From positions 1 to 40,439 of IMG/VR virus record IMGVR_UViG_3300033048_000093: DNA of 40,439 nt; one strand, written 5' to 3'. Positions 24-40,439 of this stretch are shown here, one piece after another (position 1 is the first letter of the stretch; each line of letters starts with the position of its first letter). Under the pieces are notes generated by a model, which worked only from the letters and a program-made list of their open reading frames with translations, was not told the DNA's origin and made no database searches. This DNA is from a virus. The position numbers and the translations under genes were made by a program.

Positions 24-75
24 TTTATATTTCACAGGGTCCCCAGTGGTCAGACCAGTCACTGGTCTGACCAGT
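24..75 (-). promoter_or_regulatory. Paired palindromic operator with leftward -10
   Basis: Two 15-bp sites lie side by side: AGTGGTCAGACCAGT (45-59) and ACTGGTCTGACCAGT (61-75, a perfect palindrome around its central base). Their centres are 16 bp apart. Reading leftward, the proximal site is followed after 15 bp by TATAAA (24-29 on the minus strand), so a promoter may fire off the left edge of the window. The same two-site arrangement and 15-bp spacing recur at 10643-10695. Confidence 0.6.
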
Positions 76-1794: not shown

Positions 1795-1833
1795 ATTATA
1801 TCAGTAAGTTAAGGATTTACTGCTCCGACCAGT
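1795..1833 (-). promoter_or_regulatory. Leftward promoter with palindromic box in place of -35
   Basis: On the minus strand the 15-bp box ACTGGTCGGAGCAGT (1819-1833) is followed by exactly 18 bp and then a perfect TATAAT (1795-1800). No independent -35 consensus is present; the right half of the box sits where -35 should be. The same box-to-hexamer distance is seen at 6014-6052 and 6163-6201. It should drive the 1745-551 operon. Confidence 0.7.
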
Positions 1834-1841
1834 TGCATGCG

Positions 1842-2135
1842 CTAATAGTATTCTTTAGCTGTTAAAAAAAGAATAGAAGTGTTAGAAAAACAAAGATTTC
1901 TCGTTCTATCTTTTCTAACCTGTTTTAATATCTCAAAATGTAAACGCTCTTGGTTTCTTAAAGTTAAGAGACTTACATTAAAAAATGCATTTTCTTCATA
2001 TTTTTTTATAATTAATTCTCGTAAATTATCCCAAGTCTTTATTTGAGCACTTAAAGGTATAACAGCATAGCAAACAGGATCTAGCATATCCGTTTGAAAG
2101 CTAGTATTAAGATCTATATCTAATTTTTTAATCAC
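1842..2135 (-). CDS. Hypothetical protein, 97 aa
   Basis: Unrecognised 97-residue protein. The open frame begins with GTG (2133-2135); the upstream bases give only a weak ribosome site. It lies 22 bp downstream of the preceding gene and is the last gene of the operon starting near 5983. It ends just before the palindromic promoter of the next operon. Composition is ordinary, with a charged middle (EILKQVRKDRTRN). No domain, signal or membrane segment was seen. Confidence 0.5.
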   Translation of the reverse strand: MIKKLDIDLNTSFQTDMLDPVCYAVIPLSAQIKTWDNLRELIIKKYEENAFFNVSLLTLRNQERLHFEILKQVRKDRTRNLCFSNTSILFLTAKEYY

Positions 2136-2157
2136 TTACATTTACCAGGTGTTGGGG

Positions 2158-2805
2158 TTAAGATAATTCTAGAATTTTAAAGGATTCAATTACTTTTAAA
2201 ATGTTTTCACCTTTATTTGATAAACCTCTTTCTACAAGATCGGACAAATAACCATTAGAATTATAGTCATCCATAGAATAACTTTCCCAATCATCATTTA
2301 ACTCTGAATTACAAAAGCTACTCATAAGCGCGCCTAGTTGATTGTGATCCCAAGTAGATAGATTGCCCCAGTCTTTAACATTAGATGAATAAGCCGAGAT
2401 AAATCCGTCACGGCTTGTAAATCTAGCGAGTACTAGTGAAAAAAAATCTTTTTCATCGACAAGGGAGCGCAATAATTTGACTTTATCTAGGCCAATTAGA
2501 CAAAATAATCGATCTGATTCAAAGTTATATTCTTTGGGCTGGTCTAAATCGTTAAAGATTAGGCCTAATTTGTTTTCTAGCTCTTTGTTTAATTGTGAAA
2601 CGTATTCTATACAATAAGTGTCTTTAATAGCCTTGGTATAGCTAAACTCGGAGCAATATCTTTGCGAAAGATCAAAATAGGTATCATCATTTATATTTTC
2701 AAGCTCGTCAATTTCTGGAAGATCTTGTTCTAAGCACTTCTGAAAATTGTAATCATGTACACTTTCATAAAAGCCCATAAAAGGTATCTCAATTAATTTT
2801 TTCAC
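2158..2805 (-). CDS. Uncharacterised phage protein (FYESVHDY family)
   Basis: A 215-residue acidic protein. The chosen start is GTG at 2803-2805, because GGAGGG stands seven bases before it and it forms a GTGA overlap with the upstream stop; the longer frame beginning at a TTG (2820) lacks such a site. The N-terminus (IPFMGFYESVHDY) and the internal YCIEYVSQLN, YNFESDRLF and FTSRDGFISAYSS blocks resemble an uncharacterised family I recall from phages of enteric bacteria; no function is known to me. Neighbours are likewise accessory genes next to a methyltransferase. Confidence 0.7.
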   Translation of the reverse strand: MKKLIEIPFMGFYESVHDYNFQKCLEQDLPEIDELENINDDTYFDLSQRYCSEFSYTKAIKDTYCIEYVSQLNKELENKLGLIFNDLDQPKEYNFESDRLFCLIGLDKVKLLRSLVDEKDFFSLVLARFTSRDGFISAYSSNVKDWGNLSTWDHNQLGALMSSFCNSELNDDWESYSMDDYNSNGYLSDLVERGLSNKGENILKVIESFKILELS

Positions 2806-3392
2806 AGTTGTGCCCTCCAAAGTATTTTTTCTACATGATTATTATTATCATCTAATAGTATTAAGTCTTCACCATTCCAAAAAACTTTGGACAGTATGCC
2901 TTCGTATATATCGTCATTTTCACGATCACCCGCTTTAATTTGCGCGATATACTCCGTGCAACAATCATCTATTTCCTTTTGTGCTTCTTCTTTTGTGTCA
3001 TATAGCGCAGGTTTTAAATTCTCTTTGCTATCGCCTTCAATGCCTACCGAATAACCGCCACTTAATAAAGGGATAAGGTCAGTATATTTTATTATGTCTG
3101 TTATGCTATCGGCTTCTATAAATGACATAAAGCGTTTTAATGTTTTTGCGTCTTTTTCGCTAACTTCTTCGCACCCTGTAACCCAATATATCATTTCACC
3201 ATTCATATCTGCTATAGTGGAAAAATCATCACTTAGCCAAGATGCGGTATCATCTTCTAGGGAGCCATGACATTCACTAAGCATAGCCTCTCTAAAAGCG
3301 CTATTTTCACAATCGGCTAGTATCAATACTTTATTAGACTTTTCATATGAGCATATAAGTAAAGTCCTATATATAATAAAATAAGCTTTCAT
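2802..3392 (-). CDS. Hypothetical acidic protein next to methyltransferase
   Basis: A 196-residue acidic protein of unknown function. The ATG at 3390-3392 is chosen because it forms an ATGA overlap with the stop of the methyltransferase gene upstream; an in-frame start five codons earlier is less likely. The protein opens MKAYFIIYRTLLICSYE, has a WVTGCEEVSEKDAKTL segment and a C-terminal helical region (DTKEEAQKEIDDCCTEYIAQIKAG as two parts of one helix). Translational coupling on both sides suggests it is made in step with the methyltransferase. Confidence 0.65.
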   Translation of the reverse strand: MKAYFIIYRTLLICSYEKSNKVLILADCENSAFREAMLSECHGSLEDDTASWLSDDFSTIADMNGEMIYWVTGCEEVSEKDAKTLKRFMSFIEADSITDIIKYTDLIPLLSGGYSVGIEGDSKENLKPALYDTKEEAQKEIDDCCTEYIAQIKAGDRENDDIYEGILSKVFWNGEDLILLDDNNNHVEKILWRAQL

Positions 3393-5362
3393 AATGTAGC
3401 CCCCCAAAAATCCACTTTTAAAATTTGCGTACTAATGCTAGTTCCAACTTTTTTAAAAGAATTTTCCGGCAATTCTATAATCTCAGCTATTCCGCAATCT
3501 AGCCATTTTTTAACCAGATTAGAAAACCTTTTATTTTTTAGACTATGCTTTTTAAGATGTGCGCCCTTTGGCATTATGCAACAAACAAGACCAGTATTAG
3601 GCTTTAGCATTTTGATAGAATGCATTAAATGGTTAATATGCTGATCTTTTTCAAAAGGTGGGTTTAAGGCAATACGATCATAAATAGGCTTTGCTTTCAT
3701 AGCTAAAAAATCGCCTTGATTCGGACTAAACCCGCGTTTTTCTAATATCTCGCAAAGAGAATAATTAATTTCAACGCAATCAATTTTTTTAACTAAAGGC
3801 TTAATTTTATCAACGATAGAACCCGATCCCGCTTCTGGCTCTAATACATAATGATGCGGTTTTAGTTCTAGCGAATCTATTAGTATATCCAGAGCTTTCC
3901 CTTCAGTCGAAAAGTAACCCGCTATTTTATTGAATTTAACAGCACTTAGCAGAATATCAACTTCCCTAGATTTATTGTCAAAAGTGTTTTCAGGTGTTTT
4001 AGCCGATATTAGTAGCATTAAAAATGCACCAATATCGGAGGGGTTTTTTAATTTTCCCGTACTATAATAACATTCATAATACCCTTGATTATCGGACAGG
4101 CTTTCTAACTTTAGAATTTCAAAAAGTTGTTTTTTATTAGTGATTGTTTTTAGCTCATCCGGCATATTTTTATTTTTTATGCCTTCTGCAAGAATAAATA
4201 AAGCTTTTTGTACTAAGATATGCTGCTCAGCATCTAGCAAAGCCGACTTTGCAAATTGCATTTTACGAGGCGTGTTAGATTCTCTTGGTGCTAAAAGTGC
4301 ATCTATTTTTGTTTGCATTCCTTCAGCTAATTTAAAAAATTTAGTGCAAAGGCTAGCTTTTTCTTTTATAGAAAAACTCTCGGCTTTAAGTGTTACGTTT
4401 TCTTTATTGTCACAATAAATTTTTGCAGCTAATAAAGTGAAAAAAGCGAACCCCGCAGGGCTTTTGCCAAATCGCCTAGAATAATAGCCCCCCGCTTTAA
4501 TTGCTCTATGTTTTTCTGTCAAAAATTTAGCTCTTTCTAAACGTGATACGGGCGAGCATATAAACATGTTACACTCTTTTTTTGTGTGATAGATAGAATT
4601 TATAGAGTAGTCAAGGGTTGAAAAGCTAGTCAGCTTTTTAACGTTTTTAATAGTACTAACTGTTTCGTCTTCTGTCTTTAATCTATTACTTGATCCATAT
4701 TTTAGATCTAATTTTTTAACTCCCCAACCTGTCGAATATCTAGAACCCGTTTTTAAGTAAAAACCACCACCCATTGAATATTTTTCTCTATGTTCTGATT
4801 TGTCGTCAGCATCAAAAAGATGCAAGGTATGCTTAAAAGTTGCGGCTGCTTTTCGCATTTCGGGAAATAAATCACGGGTATGTTTAGAGAACCCGATAAT
4901 AACAGATTTTATATTTTTAGCTCCGTAATAGTCCGTTTGAGAATCGCTATCATTTTCGCTATATGTAGCGACTAATAATGATTTAGTCCCCTTTGGCATA
5001 CTATTAAGGCAAAGTAATTGATTTAGACTTTCTTGATCTCTCTGTTTTTTTGCATCTTCCTTATAATTCGCAAGGATTAGATTTTGTTTTAAATTAAATT
5101 TTTTCTCAGTTTCTAACAATTTTAGCTTTTTTTCTTCAGTTAAAGCGGGGTATATAGATTCCGTTTGTGCTTGCCCTAAAGCGGTATGCTCGTCTATAAC
5201 CGTAGAATAGCCATCTACTCTAAGTAAGGTTATATCAAACAAAATAGATACCATACCCGCGCCCGTGATTAAGCTAGTAATAGATTTAGCTTTTTGTATG
5301 TCCATGATGTAAGCCAGACCAGTATTTGTTTGTAAAGCCTGCCCGATTTTAAGATTTAACAT
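3389..5362 (-). CDS. DUF4942-type N6-adenine DNA methyltransferase
   Basis: A 657-residue protein whose C-terminal third is a class I SAM-dependent DNA methyltransferase. The SAM-binding motif is VLEPEAGSGSIVDKI (about residue 500-515), followed by an acidic residue in CVEINYSL, and the catalytic motif IV is NPPF (about 568), typical of adenine-N6 enzymes. The middle carries a GGYYSRRFGKSPAGFAFF segment like DUF4942 proteins of plasmids and phages. The N-terminal 250 residues are not recognised. A good GGGG ribosome site precedes the ATG. Likely role: modifying phage DNA to resist restriction; target sequence unknown. Confidence 0.8.
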   Translation of the reverse strand: MLNLKIGQALQTNTGLAYIMDIQKAKSITSLITGAGMVSILFDITLLRVDGYSTVIDEHTALGQAQTESIYPALTEEKKLKLLETEKKFNLKQNLILANYKEDAKKQRDQESLNQLLCLNSMPKGTKSLLVATYSENDSDSQTDYYGAKNIKSVIIGFSKHTRDLFPEMRKAAATFKHTLHLFDADDKSEHREKYSMGGGFYLKTGSRYSTGWGVKKLDLKYGSSNRLKTEDETVSTIKNVKKLTSFSTLDYSINSIYHTKKECNMFICSPVSRLERAKFLTEKHRAIKAGGYYSRRFGKSPAGFAFFTLLAAKIYCDNKENVTLKAESFSIKEKASLCTKFFKLAEGMQTKIDALLAPRESNTPRKMQFAKSALLDAEQHILVQKALFILAEGIKNKNMPDELKTITNKKQLFEILKLESLSDNQGYYECYYSTGKLKNPSDIGAFLMLLISAKTPENTFDNKSREVDILLSAVKFNKIAGYFSTEGKALDILIDSLELKPHHYVLEPEAGSGSIVDKIKPLVKKIDCVEINYSLCEILEKRGFSPNQGDFLAMKAKPIYDRIALNPPFEKDQHINHLMHSIKMLKPNTGLVCCIMPKGAHLKKHSLKNKRFSNLVKKWLDCGIAEIIELPENSFKKVGTSISTQILKVDFWGATL

Positions 5363-5372
5363 AAGAAACCCC

Positions 5373-5828
5373 TTATAAACTTATTTTTGTTTGTAAATGT
5401 TTGAAAAAATAACGGGATAAAGATCCGTTAGCATGTGCTTGCTGTCTATAATTAGATAGCTTTGCAAAATTATATAAAAGTAATTGCTCCGAAAATCTCA
5501 ATTGAAAAAAATCCTTTTTAAAACGTATTCCCGCAATCATTAACATTTTTTTAGCCTGCTTTCTAGTTGCCTTTTTTAAGCGTGGTCTACCATCATGATC
5601 AAGTAAAAATTGATCAACTTTTAAGCTACATTCTTTTGCTGATCCACATTCCAACATTGACTTACAGATAATTGAGCCGTCAATATCAACTTTGTATAAA
5701 TCAACCGCTTGATAACCATTTCTAGGTTCGAATTTTAAAAAATACGGTATGCATTGCTCAATAATCGCGGAATTAACAAAATTAATTCTTTCTTTTAGAT
5801 TAACTTTAGTATAATTTTTGTTTCCCAT
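5373..5828 (-). CDS. Hypothetical protein, 151 aa
   Basis: Unrecognised 151-residue basic protein. AGAGG stands six bases before its ATG and overlaps the stop of the small gene upstream, indicating an operon. The C-terminal half is rich in Lys and Arg (ATRKQAKKMLMIAGIRFKKD), which could suit nucleic-acid binding, but no known fold is evident. It lies directly upstream of the DUF4942 methyltransferase with a 10-bp gap, so it may be a partner of that enzyme (inference). Confidence 0.65.
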   Translation of the reverse strand: MGNKNYTKVNLKERINFVNSAIIEQCIPYFLKFEPRNGYQAVDLYKVDIDGSIICKSMLECGSAKECSLKVDQFLLDHDGRPRLKKATRKQAKKMLMIAGIRFKKDFFQLRFSEQLLLYNFAKLSNYRQQAHANGSLSRYFFKHLQTKISL

Positions 5829-5836
5829 TTTAACCT

Positions 5837-5983
5837 CTATCTTTCGTAAGTTGGTAAAGCGTTATAGGCTTTAGTTAGTGAAACGATAGCATCATTTTTT
5901 GTAGGTTCTATCATAGATAAGCCATTAAACTCAGCCTTAAACATTCTTAAGCCTTTTGAATATTTGATAGTTAATTTTTTCAT
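5837..5983 (-). CDS. Small hypothetical protein, 48 aa
   Basis: A short frame of 48 codons beginning MKKLTIKYSKGLRMFKAEFN. It has an AGAG ribosome site seven bases before the ATG, lies 31 bp downstream of a -10 hexamer, and its stop overlaps the ribosome site of the next gene. These features make it a credible first gene of the 5983-1842 operon. The pattern (short beta strand, then a helical tail with SLTKAYNALPTYER) loosely recalls small HicB-like or antitoxin-like proteins, but there is no real evidence for that function. Confidence 0.6.
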   Translation of the reverse strand: MKKLTIKYSKGLRMFKAEFNGLSMIEPTKNDAIVSLTKAYNALPTYER

Positions 5984-6013
5984 TTTTTGCGCTCTGTTAT
6001 TTTCGATGTAAGG

Positions 6014-6052
6014 ACTATAGCAAGAAAAACCTTATATACTGCTCTGACCAGT
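6014..6052 (-). promoter_or_regulatory. Leftward promoter with palindromic box in place of -35
   Basis: On the minus strand ACTGGTCAGAGCAGT (6038-6052) is followed by exactly 18 bp and TATAGT (6014-6019). The box, its GAGCAGT right half and the spacing match the promoter at 1795-1833 closely. It should transcribe 5983 to 1842. Confidence 0.7.
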
Positions 6053-6087
6053 TGATGTGAAAAATGTAAAAAGTATTTTTAATATGG

Positions 6088-6201
6088 CTTATAAAGGATA
6101 GGACATTAAAGAAGTGGTCTGACCAGTTTGAAATTTCACTGGTCAGACCTGTGAAAAAATGTACTGGTCGGTCCAGTTTGAATTTTTACTTGGAGTATAG
6201 T
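6088..6201. promoter_or_regulatory. Array of three palindromic sites with rightward promoter
   Basis: Three 15-bp sites lie at 6113-6127 (AGTGGTCTGACCAGT), 6138-6152 (ACTGGTCAGACCTGT) and 6163-6177 (ACTGGTCGGTCCAGT), with centres exactly 25 bp apart. The last is followed rightward by 18 bp and TATAGT (6196-6201), the same geometry as the leftward promoters, so it predicts a plus-strand transcript. Leftward from the first site, TATAAG (6088-6093) follows after 19 bp, so a divergent promoter is possible. No plus-strand gene is evident downstream; the transcript would run antisense to 6285-6539. Confidence 0.6.
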
Positions 6202-6284
6202 AATACTAAAACTCACACCCCGCACAGGTGTAATACCGAGCTAAGCCCGTCCACGAAAATTCTAAATAAATTTGGAATGTATTT

Positions 6285-6539
6285 TCATTTTCTGGAATTT
6301 ACGAACGCTCGCCGGGCGCGGATATATGCTTTCGGATTAAGTGTGCCCTTACCGCCGCAATCAGGGCACAATGGATAAGCCGTGTTATCCATACATAAGC
6401 AATGACATTGATTATCACCAAGCATAGTGCTTATCTTATCATTCCGACGTAAGCCGAATTGACCCGATCTAGTTTTTTCAGTATATAACTTTTCATTTCT
6501 ACCTATCACGATGCGGCGGGTAAATCTTTTACTTAACAT
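6285..6539 (-). CDS. Small zinc-finger-like protein, 84 aa
   Basis: An 84-residue basic protein with a compact cysteine cluster in its C-terminal half: CHCLC followed after about a dozen residues by CPDCGGKGT. The second half resembles one repeat of a DnaJ-type or other zinc ribbon, so metal binding is likely. The N-terminus is Arg/Lys-rich (KRFTRRIVIGRNEK), which would suit nucleic-acid binding. Its ATG lies next to the AT-rich inverted-repeat block, and a plus-strand promoter at 6196-6201 points into it. Function unknown; the frame could in principle be chance, but the Cys pattern argues it is real. Confidence 0.55.
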   Translation of the reverse strand: MLSKRFTRRIVIGRNEKLYTEKTRSGQFGLRRNDKISTMLGDNQCHCLCMDNTAYPLCPDCGGKGTLNPKAYIRARRAFVNSRK

Positions 6540-6570
6540 TTATGTTTACCCTATCTTTGAGGCATAGGCC

Positions 6571-6625
6571 TAACACTAAATATTAGGTAAATACGAGGTT
6601 TTGTATTACCTAATATTTAGTGTTA
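6571..6625. repeat. 20-bp perfect inverted repeat
   Basis: Arms TAACACTAAATATTAGGTAA (6571-6590) and its exact complement (6606-6625), around a 15-base centre whose ends (TAC and GTA) extend the stem by three pairs after a one-base bulge. No U tract follows on either side, so it is a poor intrinsic terminator. Confidence 0.9.
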
Positions 6626-6726
6626 TTATGTTTACTTTTTACTTGGTATAGTCTAAGTAAAAATAGGTGCATCTAAATATAGGCTAAATTTACATTAAAT
6701 GCAAATAAAGATAAAACATTTAAAAG

Positions 6727-6764
6727 TTAATAAAACTATGTTGTTATTAAAATAGTTTTATTAA
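6727..6764. repeat. 13-bp perfect inverted repeat
   Basis: Arms TTAATAAAACTAT (6727-6739) and ATAGTTTTATTAA (6752-6764) with a 12-base centre. It is the second of three inverted repeats in the AT-rich block. Confidence 0.9.
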
Positions 6765-6793
6765 TAATGTTTGGTAGGAGTAAGATATGTTGT

Positions 6794-6832
6794 ATTAATA
6801 TATAAAATATTTTACCTGTTTTATATATTAAT
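6794..6832. repeat. 14-bp perfect inverted repeat
   Basis: Arms ATTAATATATAAAA (6794-6807) and TTTTATATATTAAT (6819-6832) with an 11-base centre. All pairs are A-T, so the hairpin would be weak as a terminator; a protein-binding or unwinding role fits better. Confidence 0.9.
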
Positions 6833-6878
6833 AATTAGTGTTAGCAGAATATTAATTGACTAAAAAGTTTGGCTTACT

Positions 6879-6937
6879 AAATCGAAATCGAAATCGAAAT
6901 CGAAATCGAAATCGAAATCGAAATCGAAATCGAAATC
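6879..6937. repeat. Hexamer tandem repeat (AAATCG), nearly ten copies
   Basis: An uninterrupted array of AAATCG, 59 bp or 9.8 copies, with no mismatch. It ends exactly at the stop codon of the leftward gene 6937-7179, so on that gene's strand CGATTT repeats begin directly after the stop. Copy number in such arrays changes easily by slippage. Confidence 0.95.
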
Positions 6938-7179
6938 TATACTGGTACTACTTCTGTAAAGTCTAGATAAAACACTTGGCCCGGCTTAAACTTGCCAAAT
7001 AAACCCGGGTTAGAAATTACAAGATCCACTTCTCCCCCCGGGGTAAACTTAGCGTATGTGTTATCTTCATCCAAACCCGATTCAGGGTACCCTGATTTTA
7101 TTACTGGACTCATAATCAATTGTTCATGTTTTTCAAAAAGTTTAACAGAAGTTACTTTCATTTTTGCTCGCATTTTCAT
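6937..7179 (-). CDS. Small conserved phage protein, 80 aa
   Basis: An 80-residue protein of the type MKMRAKMKVTSVKL ... NPGLFGKFKPGQVFYLDFTEV. Similar short proteins with a kFxPGxxYYlDFT end occur in many phage genomes without assigned function; I recognise the pattern but not a role. GGA precedes the ATG. It is the last gene of the leftward run from 10585 before the AT-rich block, and the hexamer array begins at its stop. Predicted all-beta, cytoplasmic. Confidence 0.7.
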   Translation of the reverse strand: MKMRAKMKVTSVKLFEKHEQLIMSPVIKSGYPESGLDEDNTYAKFTPGGEVDLVISNPGLFGKFKPGQVFYLDFTEVVPV

Positions 7180-9866: not shown

Positions 9867-10266
9867 TTAAATCTTCTTCTTCTATTAATTTACGTGTTTC
9901 CTCGGTAGCCACAGCACCGGCTAAGAAAGCAGACTCTAATCTGTTTTTAAGATAATCCTCCGTGGTTAAAGTTAAATAATTACTGCAGGTTAGCCCTTCT
10001 TTACTTGCAAACCATGCATCACGTTTTATTGCTAGTGGGCTTTTCTTAGAAATTGTTTTATTGCTTGAATAACCAATGGCATTCTTTTTTGATGAAAGTG
10101 GTACCCTAGTAACCTGCGCGCCTTTCTTTATTGCTATTAATGTAGTATCCCAGTGATAGTCGCATTCAGAGCATCTATAAAACCGTTTTGAATCGGATCT
10201 ATGCATAAGCAGAATAGGCTTATGATTATCCAGTGGGCAAAATAAACCTTTTATATAATTAAACAT
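9856..10266 (-). CDS. Zinc-ribbon-like protein, 136 aa
   Basis: The start is placed at ATG 10264-10266, with GAGG seven to eight bases upstream and an 8-bp overlap with the preceding gene; the longer frame from 10344 lacks this. The N-terminus has LFCPLDNHK and, after about twenty residues, FYRCSECDYHW, which together look like a small zinc ribbon. The C-terminal third is acidic and helical (KNRLESAFLAGAVATEETRK). Function unknown; it directly precedes the C5 methyltransferase and overlaps it. Confidence 0.65.
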   Translation of the reverse strand: MFNYIKGLFCPLDNHKPILLMHRSDSKRFYRCSECDYHWDTTLIAIKKGAQVTRVPLSSKKNAIGYSSNKTISKKSPLAIKRDAWFASKEGLTCSNYLTLTTEDYLKNRLESAFLAGAVATEETRKLIEEEDLNAS

Positions 10267-10585
10267 TATTTTTCCTCGTTGTTTTATTTTTAGTTTCGGG
10301 ATTATCAAATTTAATAGTTGGCATATCTGCATAACCCAATTCAATAGCGAGTAAGGTTACACTAACAATTAGTGATAAAAACAGCATGATAAAAAAGGAC
10401 ATAACGTTACCCTGTATTTTTATTTCTGCATATTTCATCTCGTATAACTCTCCTGTTTTAGTATTACGTCTAGGTAAAATATAATCCTTTTTATAATTGC
10501 AATCTAAGTCATTAATACACACTGAAATTAACCACATGGCATACCATATGAATCCTAATGCACTCATACATAAATTAACATTCAT
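10259..10585 (-). CDS. Two-pass membrane protein, 108 aa
   Basis: A 108-residue protein with two hydrophobic segments, about residues 5-24 and 61-82, separated by a polar loop containing CNYKKDYILPRRNTKTGE. The C-terminal tail is basic. It is the first gene after the paired palindromic promoter at 10643-10695. Small early membrane proteins in phages often serve superinfection exclusion or host interference; nothing in the sequence proves that here, and it is far from the lysis cassette. Confidence 0.65.
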   Translation of the reverse strand: MNVNLCMSALGFIWYAMWLISVCINDLDCNYKKDYILPRRNTKTGELYEMKYAEIKIQGNVMSFFIMLFLSLIVSVTLLAIELGYADMPTIKFDNPETKNKTTRKNNV

Positions 10586-10642: not shown

Positions 10643-10695
10643 ATTATCATAAAAATTTATGTTAGTGGTCTAACCAGTTAACTGGTCATGCCACT
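10643..10695 (-). promoter_or_regulatory. Paired palindromic operator and leftward promoter
   Basis: Two 15-bp sites, AGTGGTCTAACCAGT (10664-10678) and ACTGGTCATGCCACT (10681-10695), have centres 17 bp apart. Reading leftward, exactly 15 bp after the proximal site comes GATAAT (10643-10648), with TAATAT as an overlapping alternative two bases further. The stop codon of the gene 10678-10827 lies inside the operator, so the site marks an operon boundary. It should control 10585 to 6937. Confidence 0.65.
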
Positions 10696-12023: not shown

Positions 12024-13055
12024 CTAATCTAAGAAACTAAAATCATCTTCTAGTTTATCAGAATTTAATACATGTCCCACTTCATTGCCCCATGCGTCCC
12101 AACCTTTTTTTGCATCCCTTGCAAATAGCTCAATCCGTTTAGTTTCTTCGCCAAAAAGTGTAACTATATTTTCAGCAAAGACATCAGGTTTTTTAGAGTG
12201 CTCCTGAATAGGTATTATTGAACCCTCATCAATTACATGAGCTTGTCTAACAGACCTGCTAAGTCTACTAAGAGGCTTACCTCGCACACCTAGCAAGCAT
12301 AGCTCTGTGTTAGAACGGGTATAATGCCCGCCGCCGATGAATAAATTATGTTTAATTTTGTTGCGCTTAAACCAATTGAAACCACAAGTAGTATATCTAA
12401 ATCCCCAAGCTTTAATAACGTCTAAGCCTTCTTGCAAAAGGGGCATTGTTACCCACATGAAAAGTATGGCATTCTTCTCACATATCTCTGCAACGGGCAT
12501 TTCTTTAATATCATCTAGGGACATTACTTTATAATATTTGGACGCACCGGATCTGTTTTTAGACTGATCCTTATATTTCCAAGCGGGATCCGCGTATATG
12601 ATCTCGTATTTTGAGTCACTGTTTTGACAATCTTCTACTAATTTATTGAAAGAATTAGGATCATTTTTAAAAGCCAAAGCTTCTTGGGTGCTATTAAGCA
12701 CAAGGCAGTGAGAGCAAGTATCTTGATCGCCCTCGTTGCTAAATAAAATGTATTCAAAGGTTTTAAAACATTCGCAGCATATCCGGTCTAAGCTTCTGGC
12801 ATATGCTGCGGTGCTGCTATCTAATTCTTCCTGCATATCTAAGGCTATTTGAAGCTTAGGCATTATATCAAGACCTTTACGTTGCTCTGTCCTTAATTTA
12901 AGGTAATTACCTCTACTTAATTCGACCATGCTATGGCTATCTAGTAAAAGCTTTAATTTAAAATACTGTGGATCTTTTTTACCTGTACATACAAAGGCTT
13001 CTAAAAGGCCACTCTCACAATTGGCCAGATAATAGGTTTTTGTTTCTATATTCAT
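12024..13055 (-). CDS. MT-A70 family adenine methyltransferase with zinc-like N-terminus
   Basis: A 343-residue protein. Residues 150-330 form an MT-A70 methyltransferase: YADPAWKYKDQ holds the catalytic DPPW motif in the form DPAW (156-159), followed by YKVMSLDDIKEMP and WGFRYTTCGFNWFK, and SNTELCLLGVRG. Phage members methylate adenine N6 in DNA. The N-terminal 120 residues are an extra domain with paired cysteines (CCEC at 93-96, CSHC at 114-117) that probably bind zinc. The ATG overlaps the upstream stop (ATGA). Likely role: modifying phage DNA. Confidence 0.88.
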   Translation of the reverse strand: MNIETKTYYLANCESGLLEAFVCTGKKDPQYFKLKLLLDSHSMVELSRGNYLKLRTEQRKGLDIMPKLQIALDMQEELDSSTAAYARSLDRICCECFKTFEYILFSNEGDQDTCSHCLVLNSTQEALAFKNDPNSFNKLVEDCQNSDSKYEIIYADPAWKYKDQSKNRSGASKYYKVMSLDDIKEMPVAEICEKNAILFMWVTMPLLQEGLDVIKAWGFRYTTCGFNWFKRNKIKHNLFIGGGHYTRSNTELCLLGVRGKPLSRLSRSVRQAHVIDEGSIIPIQEHSKKPDVFAENIVTLFGEETKRIELFARDAKKGWDAWGNEVGHVLNSDKLEDDFSFLD

Positions 13056-13282
13056 TTTTTGCCTTCCTCAATATTTTCGAGAACAGAATTAAATTCCTCA
13101 TCCTTCTCAATTTTATACTCATGCTCCAAGTTAGCCACTTTCCAAACTAATGGAACTTTTCGCCAAGCATCATCTTTATCTATTCTAGTGTTAACTATTT
13201 GTCCAAAAGCATGGGCTTCAATAGCTTGCGCTACTTGTACTAATTGTTCCTTAGATAGCTTATCTTTAGTTGAATATGTCAT
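13052..13282 (-). CDS. Hypothetical charged protein, 76 aa
   Basis: A 76-residue charged protein with a good AGGAA ribosome site. It is the first gene of the operon lying downstream of the palindromic site at 13341-13359 and is coupled by ATGA to the MT-A70 gene. The N-terminal part (LSKEQLVQVAQAIEAHAFGQ) and the acidic C-terminus look helical. Unrecognised; it could be an accessory factor for the methyltransferase. Confidence 0.6.
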   Translation of the reverse strand: MTYSTKDKLSKEQLVQVAQAIEAHAFGQIVNTRIDKDDAWRKVPLVWKVANLEHEYKIEKDEEFNSVLENIEEGKK

Positions 13283-13340
13283 AATGTTTCCTAAAATTAA
13301 AAATATATAAACAATACTAGGGTAACAGCATTAAGCAAGA

Positions 13341-13359
13341 TAAGTGGTAAGACCACTTA
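13341..13359. promoter_or_regulatory. Palindromic operator-like site
   Basis: TAAGTGGT-AAG-ACCACTTA has 8-bp perfect arms and shares the TGGT...ACCA core of the other nine sites, with AGTGGTAAGACCACT as its central 15-mer. The stop codon of the primase/helicase gene overlaps its edge. It stands about 60 bp before the leftward gene at 13282. No -10 hexamer is found at the 15- or 18-bp distance seen elsewhere; TTGCTT followed after 16 bp by TATTGT is a weak alternative promoter. Confidence 0.5.
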
Positions 13360-15860: not shown

Positions 15861-16112
15861 CTAAGTATTAATTTTTATTTCGGGAAATTTACCCGGTGCT
15901 AGCTTATGGCATTTGATTTTACCTTGAGTAAAATCACTCAAAGATTTAATATATTTTAATGGGATCCAACCACGCGACCACCATTGACCTACAAGCTGTG
16001 GAGAAACCTTTAACTCTCTAGCTAGAAAGGATTTGTCAACATATGGCATCGCTAATAGCTTTTCCATTTCTTTAGCTATAATCATTAACTCCGCGGTGTT
16101 GTACTCTTTCAT
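15861..16112 (-). CDS. Cro/YdaS-like helix-turn-helix repressor
   Basis: An 83-residue protein whose centre, KSFLARELKVSPQLVGQWW followed by SRGWIPLKYIKSLSDFTQGK, is a Cro/YdaS-type helix-turn-helix: short helix, turn at VSPQ, recognition helix, then the characteristic xGxIPxxYxxxLxxxTxGK tail. It lies at the divergent junction with the rightward replication operon and so probably binds there to control one or both promoters. TAGGAAT precedes the ATG. Its predicted promoter is at 16152-16180. Confidence 0.8.
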   Translation of the reverse strand: MKEYNTAELMIIAKEMEKLLAMPYVDKSFLARELKVSPQLVGQWWSRGWIPLKYIKSLSDFTQGKIKCHKLAPGKFPEIKINT

Positions 16113-16147
16113 ATATTCCTATTAAACCTTTGCTTGTCAAGAAAGAC

Positions 16148-16176
16148 TTGTAATATATACGCAATCTAAGTAATAT
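16148..16176 (+). promoter_or_regulatory. Rightward promoter of the replication operon
   Basis: TTGTAA (16148-16153), 17 bp, TAATAT (16171-16176). A transcript would begin near 16183, about 40 bases before the first rightward ATG at 16224. It overlaps the leftward promoter almost completely. Confidence 0.5.
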
Positions 16177-16180
16177 GCAA
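16152..16180 (-). promoter_or_regulatory. Leftward promoter of the Cro-like gene
   Basis: On the minus strand TTGCAT (16175-16180), 17 bp, TATATT (16152-16157). The start of transcription would lie near 16145, about 33 bases before the ATG of the Cro-like gene. Since the -10 and -35 elements interlock with the rightward promoter, the two cannot be occupied at once. Confidence 0.55.
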
Positions 16181-16223
16181 TTTCTTTTAACAGCTATACA
16201 ACACAAACAAAGGTTAACAAATT

Positions 16224-22554: not shown

Positions 22555-25500
22555 CTATGGTGTATATGAGCCTGTTAAAAAGTATTGGCTATTACGATCT
22601 ATAATATCTCGATGAATAGCATGATCATAGAATACAAATTCATCCATTTGTGCTTGATACACGGCATTTAACAAAGTTATGTCACCATTTACCGCTGCGC
22701 CAAGATCAGTTCCAGCGGGTTTAAATACCGTTAATACTAATTCATTATTAACAAATAACGATATCTCATCATCATTTATTCTAACAGAATACCAACGCTC
22801 TATATTATCTGCATAGCTCTTATATGCAAAAACCGTTTTTTGAAAAGGTATATTTGCATCAAGATAATATATTCTTAAAAATATCCGATCGGTAACTAAA
22901 TATACCGAAACCGTACCTCTTGCTGTCTCATTATTAACCACATATTTTTCTCCAACTTCGCATACATATTGCACCGTACCAGGTTGTATCGTGCTATCGA
23001 TCGACAAGCCAAATTCTACGGAAAAATTAGCTCGAGTATTTACCAAGGTTTGTGCGCTATTTATGGAGGAAGCATTATTAAGTACCGAAGCACTTCTACC
23101 TAGCCCATCAAAACGTAAAGGATCTTTATTAGATGCTGCTACATCCGTTGTGGCCACCAGAAAATTAGTGGCAGGTACATCCGCATATAATGTGCCAGAT
23201 ACTTCATCTAAGGAAAAATGCATTGTAGCGGATGCATCTGCAATAGCCTCATCTAAATCCGTTGTAGCGCCTAGAACTGGTGGTACTATCGCAGCATCAT
23301 GAGTACATGTTAAAACGATATTATCCGCAGTGTAATCTACGCCATTAATATTAACTACAATTTGCACAGTAGCCGTTAGTGTTCCCGCTCCGGACAAGGA
23401 CTCTTTGGCTAAAAAGAATATTGGTGGATCCCCAGCGTTAATATCATGGTCAACATTCAGTTGACTGCCTTGCAACGCATCACCAGATACTTGTATCACT
23501 TTAACAATATTGGCATCTAAATTTGTAATCATTACCTCAGTTTCATCAAGTGGATTGGTATTACCTAAAAGAGCTTTAAAGGCTGCATTATTGCCTGAAA
23601 ACAAACTCGGCTCAATAACAAAGCCCGCATAAGCCCCCTCAGAGTCATCAGCATGACTATCTGTTAATGCTAGATTAGTTAGCATCTTAACATTAGTCGT
23701 TTGCTCACCCTCCAAATTAGCCGTATCAGAATTAAAATCTGACAATACCTCCGCCGCCGTTTTAGCGCCTATTGCTAGCTTAATATTTGCAACATTTACA
23801 CCGAAGCTACTCGAGCTTACTCTTATCTTATATTCATTAACTCCCAATGGGGCCGGAACAATTAAAATATCATTATTACTTTCAATTACACCTACTATGG
23901 CAACGCCATTAAAATAATACGTTAAGCTTGGAACGTTCGCGTCATACACCACGACTAAACTTGATATACTATTAACAATCACATCTCTATAGGATTGCGA
24001 TCCCCCTGTTCCGCCTGCATAAACTCTCAATTGATTACCCAATTGTGAAATACTTAAAGCAAAATCATCACTTGCCATATCTATAATCTCAAAAGAGAAA
24101 GGACTCTTAGATGCCCAGATCTCAAAGGTCCAAGACTGAAGACCATTTGCATTTATTATTTGCTTTATGTCATCATTTGTTGGTATCTGAATAGTTTCGT
24201 AACTATTTCCCCTTTCTAAGTTACTCTCAGAAAACTTGTAAGCATTTAAATCCAATGATCCGGCTTGAATATTATTTATGGCTTCCCCCACACCGATTGA
24301 TCCTGCAATTGCTCCACCCCAACCTGATCCGCCTAAAGTTGGCCTAACTGAAACTCTAGCCGGTACGAAAATTTTAGATGTAATCAAATCAAGTTTATTT
24401 AAGGTTGTATCATTACCTGGTAAATTAAGAACGGGGATCGTACTAACGCCAACGCCAATAGATTTAGTTTTTATTTGGCTTACACCGCCCTCATTATCCG
24501 TTGTTGTTAATGTCACCAAGTAAACAGCATTAGATCCATAATCATATACAGGATTTTGATCAGTACTTGTATTTGAATCGCCAAAATCCCATAACCAAGA
24601 TGCAATTGTGCCATCACTATCCGTTGATAAATCTGAAAAAGTTACTACCGTGCCTAGTATTACAAAACTAAAATCTGATATTGGTAGCTTATTTACATCG
24701 GTAGCTTCCACGGATTTTATTATCTGCCCCGTATCGCTATCATCATCCGTAACTATCAAAGTTACTTCGTATGTGCCATTAACAGCATACGTATGTACGG
24801 GGTTTTGATCGGTACTGGTATTTGAATCACCAAAATCCCATAACCAAGAGTCAACCGTGCCATCGGCATCAATAGATAAATCGGTAAAAGTTATTTCTCT
24901 ATCATTGGCCACAAAACTAAAGCCAGAAGATGGTGGTGTATTGGGTGCCTCTTTATTTATTGTTCTTTCCCACTTAAATAAACTATCCCCTTGTGAGTTT
25001 TTGGTAAAAGCTACGATTTTTATTTGACTCTGATAAAAACCAAAATGAATAAGTTCATCTTCTAAAGTGTAGATAAAAGGCGAGGTCGCAGGATCCTCAG
25101 TATGCATAATTATATCGTTTGCTTGGCGAATTTCTACAACCGTTATATCACCCGATTCTACCGCATTCTCGGCATCTCCCTGTTTAAACAAACCCATGCT
25201 CGTCCTATCTCTGCCCTTCCAAGTTATGGTTGTGTCTCCCGAAAATATAGCCGGTACTGTTTGCGTGGCATTTATCTGAAAATCTGCAGGGGGATATGGA
25301 AGGCTCTCTCTATTTATAATGGTGTAATCTATGCCCGTTGCATCGTCTAAATCTAATTTTCCCGCCCATGAAGATGTCAATAGTTTAAAGTCAACATTTT
25401 GGTCATTTGCAAAAGCCGTATCTAGATATAGCATTTGGTCCAAGGGCACAACAAGATCCCCAATGCTATGCAAAACAGGTAAAGTATCTAAAAGTGCTCG

Positions 25501-40003: not shown

Positions 40004-40439
40004 TTTAGTTTAACTCCCGCTTGTGTAAAAGCCGCCGTCCAAGAATTTTGAATTTTATCAGACTTTGACTCGATTTTGGTTTTAGGCAGTGTGCCATGTA
40101 TATCTAAATCTTCACCATCATTTTCAAGTTGCATATCAAGCACAAGCTTTTTAGCCATAGCTATACCCGGTGTTGTCATAATCAGGCTTTTATAAAAATT
40201 TGTTGGCAAATTAGCTGCGGAGCAAATATTTTTATATTGCTCTACATCTTTTAATTGCATCATTCTACGAGATGCCGTTTCCGGATTTGCAACTATCATC
40301 TGTGCTAATTCAGGAAAACCCGCTTCACCACATTTTAGTACTGCCTGCATAACCAGTTTTTCATCCGGATTATCATCGGGATTATCATCGGGATTATCAT
40401 CGGGATTATCATCGGGATTGTCATCGGGATTATCATCGG
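40000..40439 (-). CDS. Capsid protease/scaffold, C-terminal part (cut by window edge)
   Basis: The frame runs off the right edge; 146 codons are inside. The C-terminal domain (VLKCGEAGFPELAQMIVANP, LKDVEQYKNICSAANLPTNF, DKIQNSWTAAFTQAGVKLK) matches the end of ClpP/S49-type phage head proteases that carry a scaffold tail, as in the lambda C/Nu3 gene. Before it is a tandem Asp-Asp-Asn-Pro linker. The catalytic domain lies outside. The position just before gpD and gpE supports the call. An internal ATG at 40348-40350 could give a separate scaffold product, as Nu3 in lambda. Confidence 0.75.
   Translation of the reverse strand, partial: DDNPDDNPDDNPDDNPDDNPDDNPDEKLVMQAVLKCGEAGFPELAQMIVANPETASRRMMQLKDVEQYKNICSAANLPTNFYKSLIMTTPGIAMAKKLVLDMQLENDGEDLDIHGTLPKTKIESKSDKIQNSWTAAFTQAGVKLK
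40369..40439 (-). repeat. 12-bp tandem repeat coding for (DDNP)n
   Basis: ATTATCATCGGG is repeated almost six times up to the window edge with one substitution (ATTGTC). Translated leftward it gives consecutive Asp-Asp-Asn-Pro units in the linker of the protease/scaffold protein. The array may continue beyond the window. Confidence 0.95.

Follow-up and report, generated by a model that had tools for sequence, protein, structure and literature searches.

At promoters of a 40,439-base tailed-phage genome, a palindromic box stands where the -35 element should be and is separated from the -10 hexamer by exactly 18 bp; the same arrangement recurs in other viral contigs, and the box fits the operator of the bacterial regulator FadR letter for letter. 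Judging by operator match and promoter geometry, we consider it somewhat probable that host FadR serves as a class II activator of these phage promoters; binding, activation, a response to acyl-CoA and the presence of FadR in the host of the analysed phage are what we infer under this reading.

The analysed stretch (hereafter the window) is the complete IMG/VR virus record IMGVR_UViG_3300033048_000093. It encodes DNA polymerase A, a VapE-type primase, an Enc34 SSB, an amidase and tail and baseplate genes. A search with its DNA polymerase found no close relatives in IMG/VR, and cultured phages reach only 35% identity. The palindrome ACTGGTCNGACCAGT occurs in the window at seven places with at most one mismatch and in three further degenerate copies; the tenth box, a degenerate one read leftward (13343-13357), was absent from the preliminary description of this DNA. 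A base-shuffled control gave, per window, 0 matches at 0 or 1 mismatch and 0.05 at two mismatches. The boxes and the elements associated with them are as follows.

24-29, minus strand: weak TATAAA, 15 bp from the box at 45-59; a doubtful promoter, which would run off the contig.
45-59: one box of the left-end pair.
61-75: the other box of this pair, the perfect palindrome ACTGGTCTGACCAGT.
1795-1800, minus strand: -10 hexamer TATAAT, TG-extended, 18 bp from the box at 1819-1833; it leads into the small genes 1446-1745, 1060-1449 and 551-1045.
1819-1833, minus strand: box ACTGGTCGGAGCAGT (read leftward), the commonest variant among related phages.
6014-6019, minus strand: -10 hexamer TATAGT, TG-extended, 18 bp from the box at 6038-6052; its targets are a 48-codon ORF (5840-5983) and genes 5373-5828 and 3389-5362.
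6038-6052, minus strand: box ACTGGTCAGAGCAGT (read leftward).
6113-6127: first box of a three-box array with a step of 25 bp, start to start.
6138-6152: second box of the array.
6163-6177, plus strand: third, promoter-proximal box of the array, ACTGGTCGGTCCAGT.
6196-6201, plus strand: -10 hexamer TATAGT, 18 bp from the third array box.
10643-10648, minus strand: GATAAT, 15 bp from the box at 10664, one among several possible -10s; gene 10259-10585 comes next.
10664-10678: box ACTGGTTAGACCACT (read leftward) of the second pair.
10681-10695: its degenerate partner box.
13319-13324, minus strand: TACCCT, exactly 18 bp from the box at 13343-13357.
13343-13357, minus strand: degenerate box AGTGGTCTTACCACT, with 13052-13282 and the MT-A70 methylase gene 12024-13055 as targets.
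15861-16112, minus strand: YdaS/Cro-like HTH protein, the sole regulator detected in the window.

The preliminary description had reported an exact 18-bp distance at three promoters lacking a -35 consensus, and both observations were borne out. The hexamer is TATAAT for the box at 1819-1833 and TATAGT for those at 6038-6052 and 6163-6177, each box being ACTGGTCNGACCAGT or a one-base variant of it; no hexamer 16-19 bp from these -10s matches TTGACA at more than two of six positions. An extended -10 (TGn) is present in two of the three. The box, a palindrome of 15-17 bp, is centred near -38. TANNNT hexamers within one mismatch of TATAAT occupy 0.64% of window positions; we estimate the chance of three -10s at one offset, given some 20 box orientations, at roughly 3e-4, or about 6e-3 when the choice among 20 offsets is allowed for.

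Downstream of the rightward promoter (6163-6201) no convincing coding target was found, and its transcript is possibly non-coding; on the plus strand, the region 6163-6940 runs antisense to 6285-6539 and then through a perfect 20-bp hairpin (6571-6625). Other repeats were seen in the window: near-identical copies of CCCCGATCATGCTATCGCAATAACAAAGA at 271-318 and 433-480, 162 bp apart in a gene-free stretch; an intergenic tandem array of the hexamer AAATCG (6879-6937); a 177-nt internal duplication (24468-24893, 71% identity) in the 1610-codon tail gene, which looks like repeated PKD-type domains; and a 12-bp tandem repeat, TTATCATCGGGA, within the right-end gene (40358-40429).

The spacing observation at single or arrayed boxes is sound and general, and the decisive support for the 18-bp rule comes from its recurrence in phages outside the window. 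An exact-pattern scan of 2.9 million viral contigs (IMG/VR) for ACTGGTCNGASYWGT-N18-TATANT returned 49 stretches, many carrying several boxes. The corresponding controls returned 6 stretches for gaps of 10-17 bp (eight spacings pooled) and 9 for gaps of 19-26 bp pooled, 8 of these at exactly 19. Complete or near-complete records of 20 phages gave 115 box orientations, collected irrespective of any -10; 53 of them have a -10 at 18 bp. That count is not fully independent, the phages having been found through about a third of the 53 sites; the two gap-control scans are independent. The next best offset reaches 6/115, and the reversed box occurs once. In phage P7 (IMGVR 3300019763_000002), eight boxes all point in one direction, and every one is followed at 18 bp by a hexamer resembling a -10, in most cases TATAGT, TATATT, TAGTAT or TATGAT. 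The 52-kb record of phage G006 repeats the variant ACTGGTCTAATCTGT throughout, often with AATNNT replacing TATAAT at 18 bp. Two sets of matches were discarded: the IMG/VR contigs of 53% GC that matched the first pattern (L001-L006, L010, L011, L014 and L015) have one conserved stretch common to all, apparently a chance match, and the single exact box of Bacteriophage Titan-X, located within a coding gene and lacking a promoter, was treated as chance.

Among 84 non-redundant phage promoters, all selected for a -10 at 18 bp, G is found at -14 in 76% and T at -15 in 64%; a common TG extension is expected because the -35 is missing. The distal half of the box, ACTGGTC, is nearly invariant (12.9 bits), and the polymerase-proximal half (8.4 bits) has variants that include GAGTTGT, GATATGT and GATCTGT. 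From the fixed spacing it had been proposed that the bound protein touches RNA polymerase, in the manner of MotA. Fixed spacing, the missing -35 and the frequent TG do argue for such contact, and an activator in contact with polymerase is likely at the box promoters; the likeness to MotA does not extend beyond analogy, and the activator is probably not a phage MotA-type protein.

The paired sites fared differently. Both pairs (45-59/61-75 and 10664-10678/10681-10695) consist of real boxes, but the 15-bp promoters assigned to them rest on weak hexamers. Further -10-like hexamers lie 12, 17, 20 and 31 bp from box 10664, no hexamer satisfying TANNNT was found at any offset from 8 to 31 of box 45-59, and the left-end pair (45-75) faces off the contig. 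In the other phages offset 15 accounts for 1 of the 115 box orientations. The suggestion of two spacing classes, single or arrayed versus paired, with perhaps different responses, was consequently abandoned, since offset 15 is enriched nowhere and the spacings of 10-17 bp, pooled, yielded 6 stretches compared with 49 for 18 bp.

FadR binds an operator published as aaCTGGTCnGACC(T/A)Gtt. When this operator lies in the -35 region, as at fabA, fabB and iclR, FadR is an activator (PMC9329746); at fad genes it represses through sites near or overlapping -10/+1. The phage box AACTGGTCNGACCAGTT fits this operator letter for letter. We read the Escherichia coli fabA promoter as ACTGATCGGACTTGT followed by 19 bp and TATCCT, and that of fabB as GCTGATCGGACTTGT followed by 19 bp and TATTGT; at E. 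coli iclR the FadR site is about 20 bp before the -10. The phage layout is that of fabA/fabB one base shorter, and the phage proximal variants resemble the GACTTGT of fabA/fabB. Two features of FadR class II activation were thus found in the phages, namely the operator consensus and an overlap with the -35 region at a fixed distance (18 bp, in some cases 19, versus 19 bp). The difference of one base nevertheless counts against FadR. So does the finding that among bacterial and archaeal genomes the perfect palindrome followed by 18 bp and TATANT occurs in two Bacillota contigs only, though natural FadR sites are imperfect.

A box overlapping the -35 region would also block polymerase, and the boxes might be operators at which a phage repressor or FadR silences otherwise constitutive extended -10 promoters. 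The three-box array (6113-6177) and the pairs look like phage immunity operators, and FadR itself is a repressor at fad genes. Repression, however, does not require that dozens of unrelated promoters keep one and the same distance, or that the -35 be lost, and FadR sites that repress overlap -10/+1, whereas those that activate sit where the phage boxes do; we regard repression as improbable. Still more remote is activation by another GntR-family host regulator with the same operator. FadR-subfamily members other than FadR bind related GGTCnGACC-like palindromes, yet FadR is the best fit to the flanking C/G pair (ACTGGTC, not ATTGGTC) and to the geometry of fabA/fabB.

A regulator encoded by the phages themselves was sought in several ways. 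PHROGs and Pfam scans of the window proteins detected no transcription activator family and one YdaS/Cro HTH only. Neither the window nor the scanned proteins of BS5 and P7 include a GntR protein, and viral contigs yielded no protein closely related to FadR; a phage-encoded FadR or GntR was rejected on these grounds. An all-against-all comparison of predicted proteins detected no family that all 12 box phages share (small, fast-evolving regulators are harder to detect in this way), and the only families that the window has in common with some of them are the tape measure, the YdaS HTH, primase, SSB and amidase. One constant site and no constant phage regulator are best explained by a host protein.

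The cultured carriers that were found infect Pseudoalteromonas and Enterovibrio only. Through megablast, two isolate records could be connected with Pseudoalteromonas phage BS5 and the related HS2; each of these phages has about seven box promoters. Those of BS5 precede gp02, gp15-13, gp32, gp50 and gp55, that is, small clusters facing against the structural genes as well as replication-side genes. For HS2, 67% of genes are expressed early (PMC7082346), and a FadR is annotated in its host, Pseudoalteromonas sp. 13-15 (PMC11170926). An unrelated podophage, 1.070.O of Enterovibrio norvegicus, carries two boxes upstream of its leftward early operon, the nearer exactly 18 bp from TATATT; this position, where virus protein would not yet have been made, points to a host protein.

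The box is absent from HS1, C7, PHS3, Pq0, XCL1123, H103 and HP1, phages of the same hosts (HP1 shares its host with HS2, and C7 shares P. atlantica with BS5). In HS1, C7, PHS3 and Pq0 many promoters of small genes carry a second palindrome, repeated in these phages, which resembles ATAACTAAACGTTAT (ATAACN5GTTAT) and precedes a TANNNT -10 by 23 bp; no likeness to a regulator site could be confirmed for it. XCL1123 and H103, from the same host genus, have a third repeated element, TTAATYATTGAC, which includes a -35. P7 and XCL1123 have genes in common at 72-92% identity, yet P7 has box promoters where XCL1123 is without them.

Several of these observations count against FadR and in favour of its main rival, a phage-encoded activator functionally like MotA whose gene has diverged beyond recognition or is lineage-specific while the DNA site has stayed constant. 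The box occurs in only some phages of one host; the second palindrome, at another fixed distance, could mean that each lineage has its own regulator; and box variants are uniform within a phage, G006 using mostly ACTGGTCTAATCTGT as if co-adapted to one protein. A candidate for such an activator is the small YdaS/Cro-like HTH protein of the window, with relatives in P7, G015 and G010. It is unlikely to bind the box, as it is absent from BS5 and HS2, and the box-free C7 has it; nor is there a box beside its gene in the window (region 16113-16223). A phage activator is further disfavoured by the lack of a family common to all box phages, by the identity of the site with a known host operator and by the box at the early operon of the Enterovibrio phage, and overall we find it unlikely, if less so than repression.

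Were host FadR the activator, its dimer (GntR family) would occupy about -45 to -31, standing in for the -35 element, and would recruit the host sigma-70 polymerase to the TG-extended -10 located 18 bp past the 15-bp box. The clusters transcribed from the box promoters would then be early or middle ones, among them small cargo genes oriented against the structural genes. Binding of long-chain acyl-CoA takes FadR off DNA, and the phage genes should therefore follow the fatty-acid state of the cell, being active during fatty acid synthesis and declining when exogenous fatty acids flood the cell. A wider proposal, which we think as apt to be wrong as right, is that a large and taxonomically diverse set of marine phages has, in independent events, acquired operators of host FadR in the -35 position of early and cargo-gene promoters, the host's acyl-CoA level gating phage expression, and that further marine phages may exploit another regulator of the host by way of ATAACN5GTTAT at 23 bp. 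That phage promoters can rely on a host regulator is known in principle; the regulator, architecture and breadth proposed here appear to be new, and the literature searches made turned up no account of phage promoters controlled by FadR. If the FadR reading is true, this phage and dozens of other marine phages time their genes by host lipid state, and transcription in phages of common marine copiotrophs (Pseudoalteromonas, Vibrionaceae) is tied directly to host lipid status. Box and spacing would also offer a simple signature by which promoters of uncultured phages can be recognized in sequence. The idea is testable at once in the virocell of HS2 and Pseudoalteromonas 13-15, for which transcriptomes and proteomes are published and a change in fatty acid metabolism has been reported.

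Of known systems, the T4 MotA/AsiA middle promoters are similar in having an activator-binding site instead of a -35, at constant distance from an extended -10 (TGn) such as the phage promoters also have. MotA and AsiA are encoded by the phage, whereas no such activator family was detected among the window proteins; and the MotA box is short, near -30 and closer to the -10, unlike the long palindrome centred near -38 described here. Lambda-type CI/Cro operators share with the boxes 17-bp dyads with a central base and tandem arrays about 25 bp apart. In contrast to these, the boxes occur at scattered sites, keep one distance to their -10s, do not flank the YdaS/Cro gene and are kept without a common repressor, no regulator family being present in all box phages. 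Cyanophage pho control involves a phosphate two-component system and few auxiliary genes, in contrast to the set of FadR-like promoters scattered over the phage genome. The pho boxes are alike in being operators through which a marine phage responds to a nutritional regulator of its host (PMC11170926 mentions that host phoR/phoB control phage genes). Closest are the fabA and fabB promoters of E. coli, which resemble those of the phages in operator sequence, in its place over the -35 region, in a near-identical distance to the -10 and in having no good -35; they differ in serving chromosomal genes of unsaturated fatty acid synthesis, with 19 bp and one promoter per gene, versus 18 bp and six to eleven promoters per phage genome.
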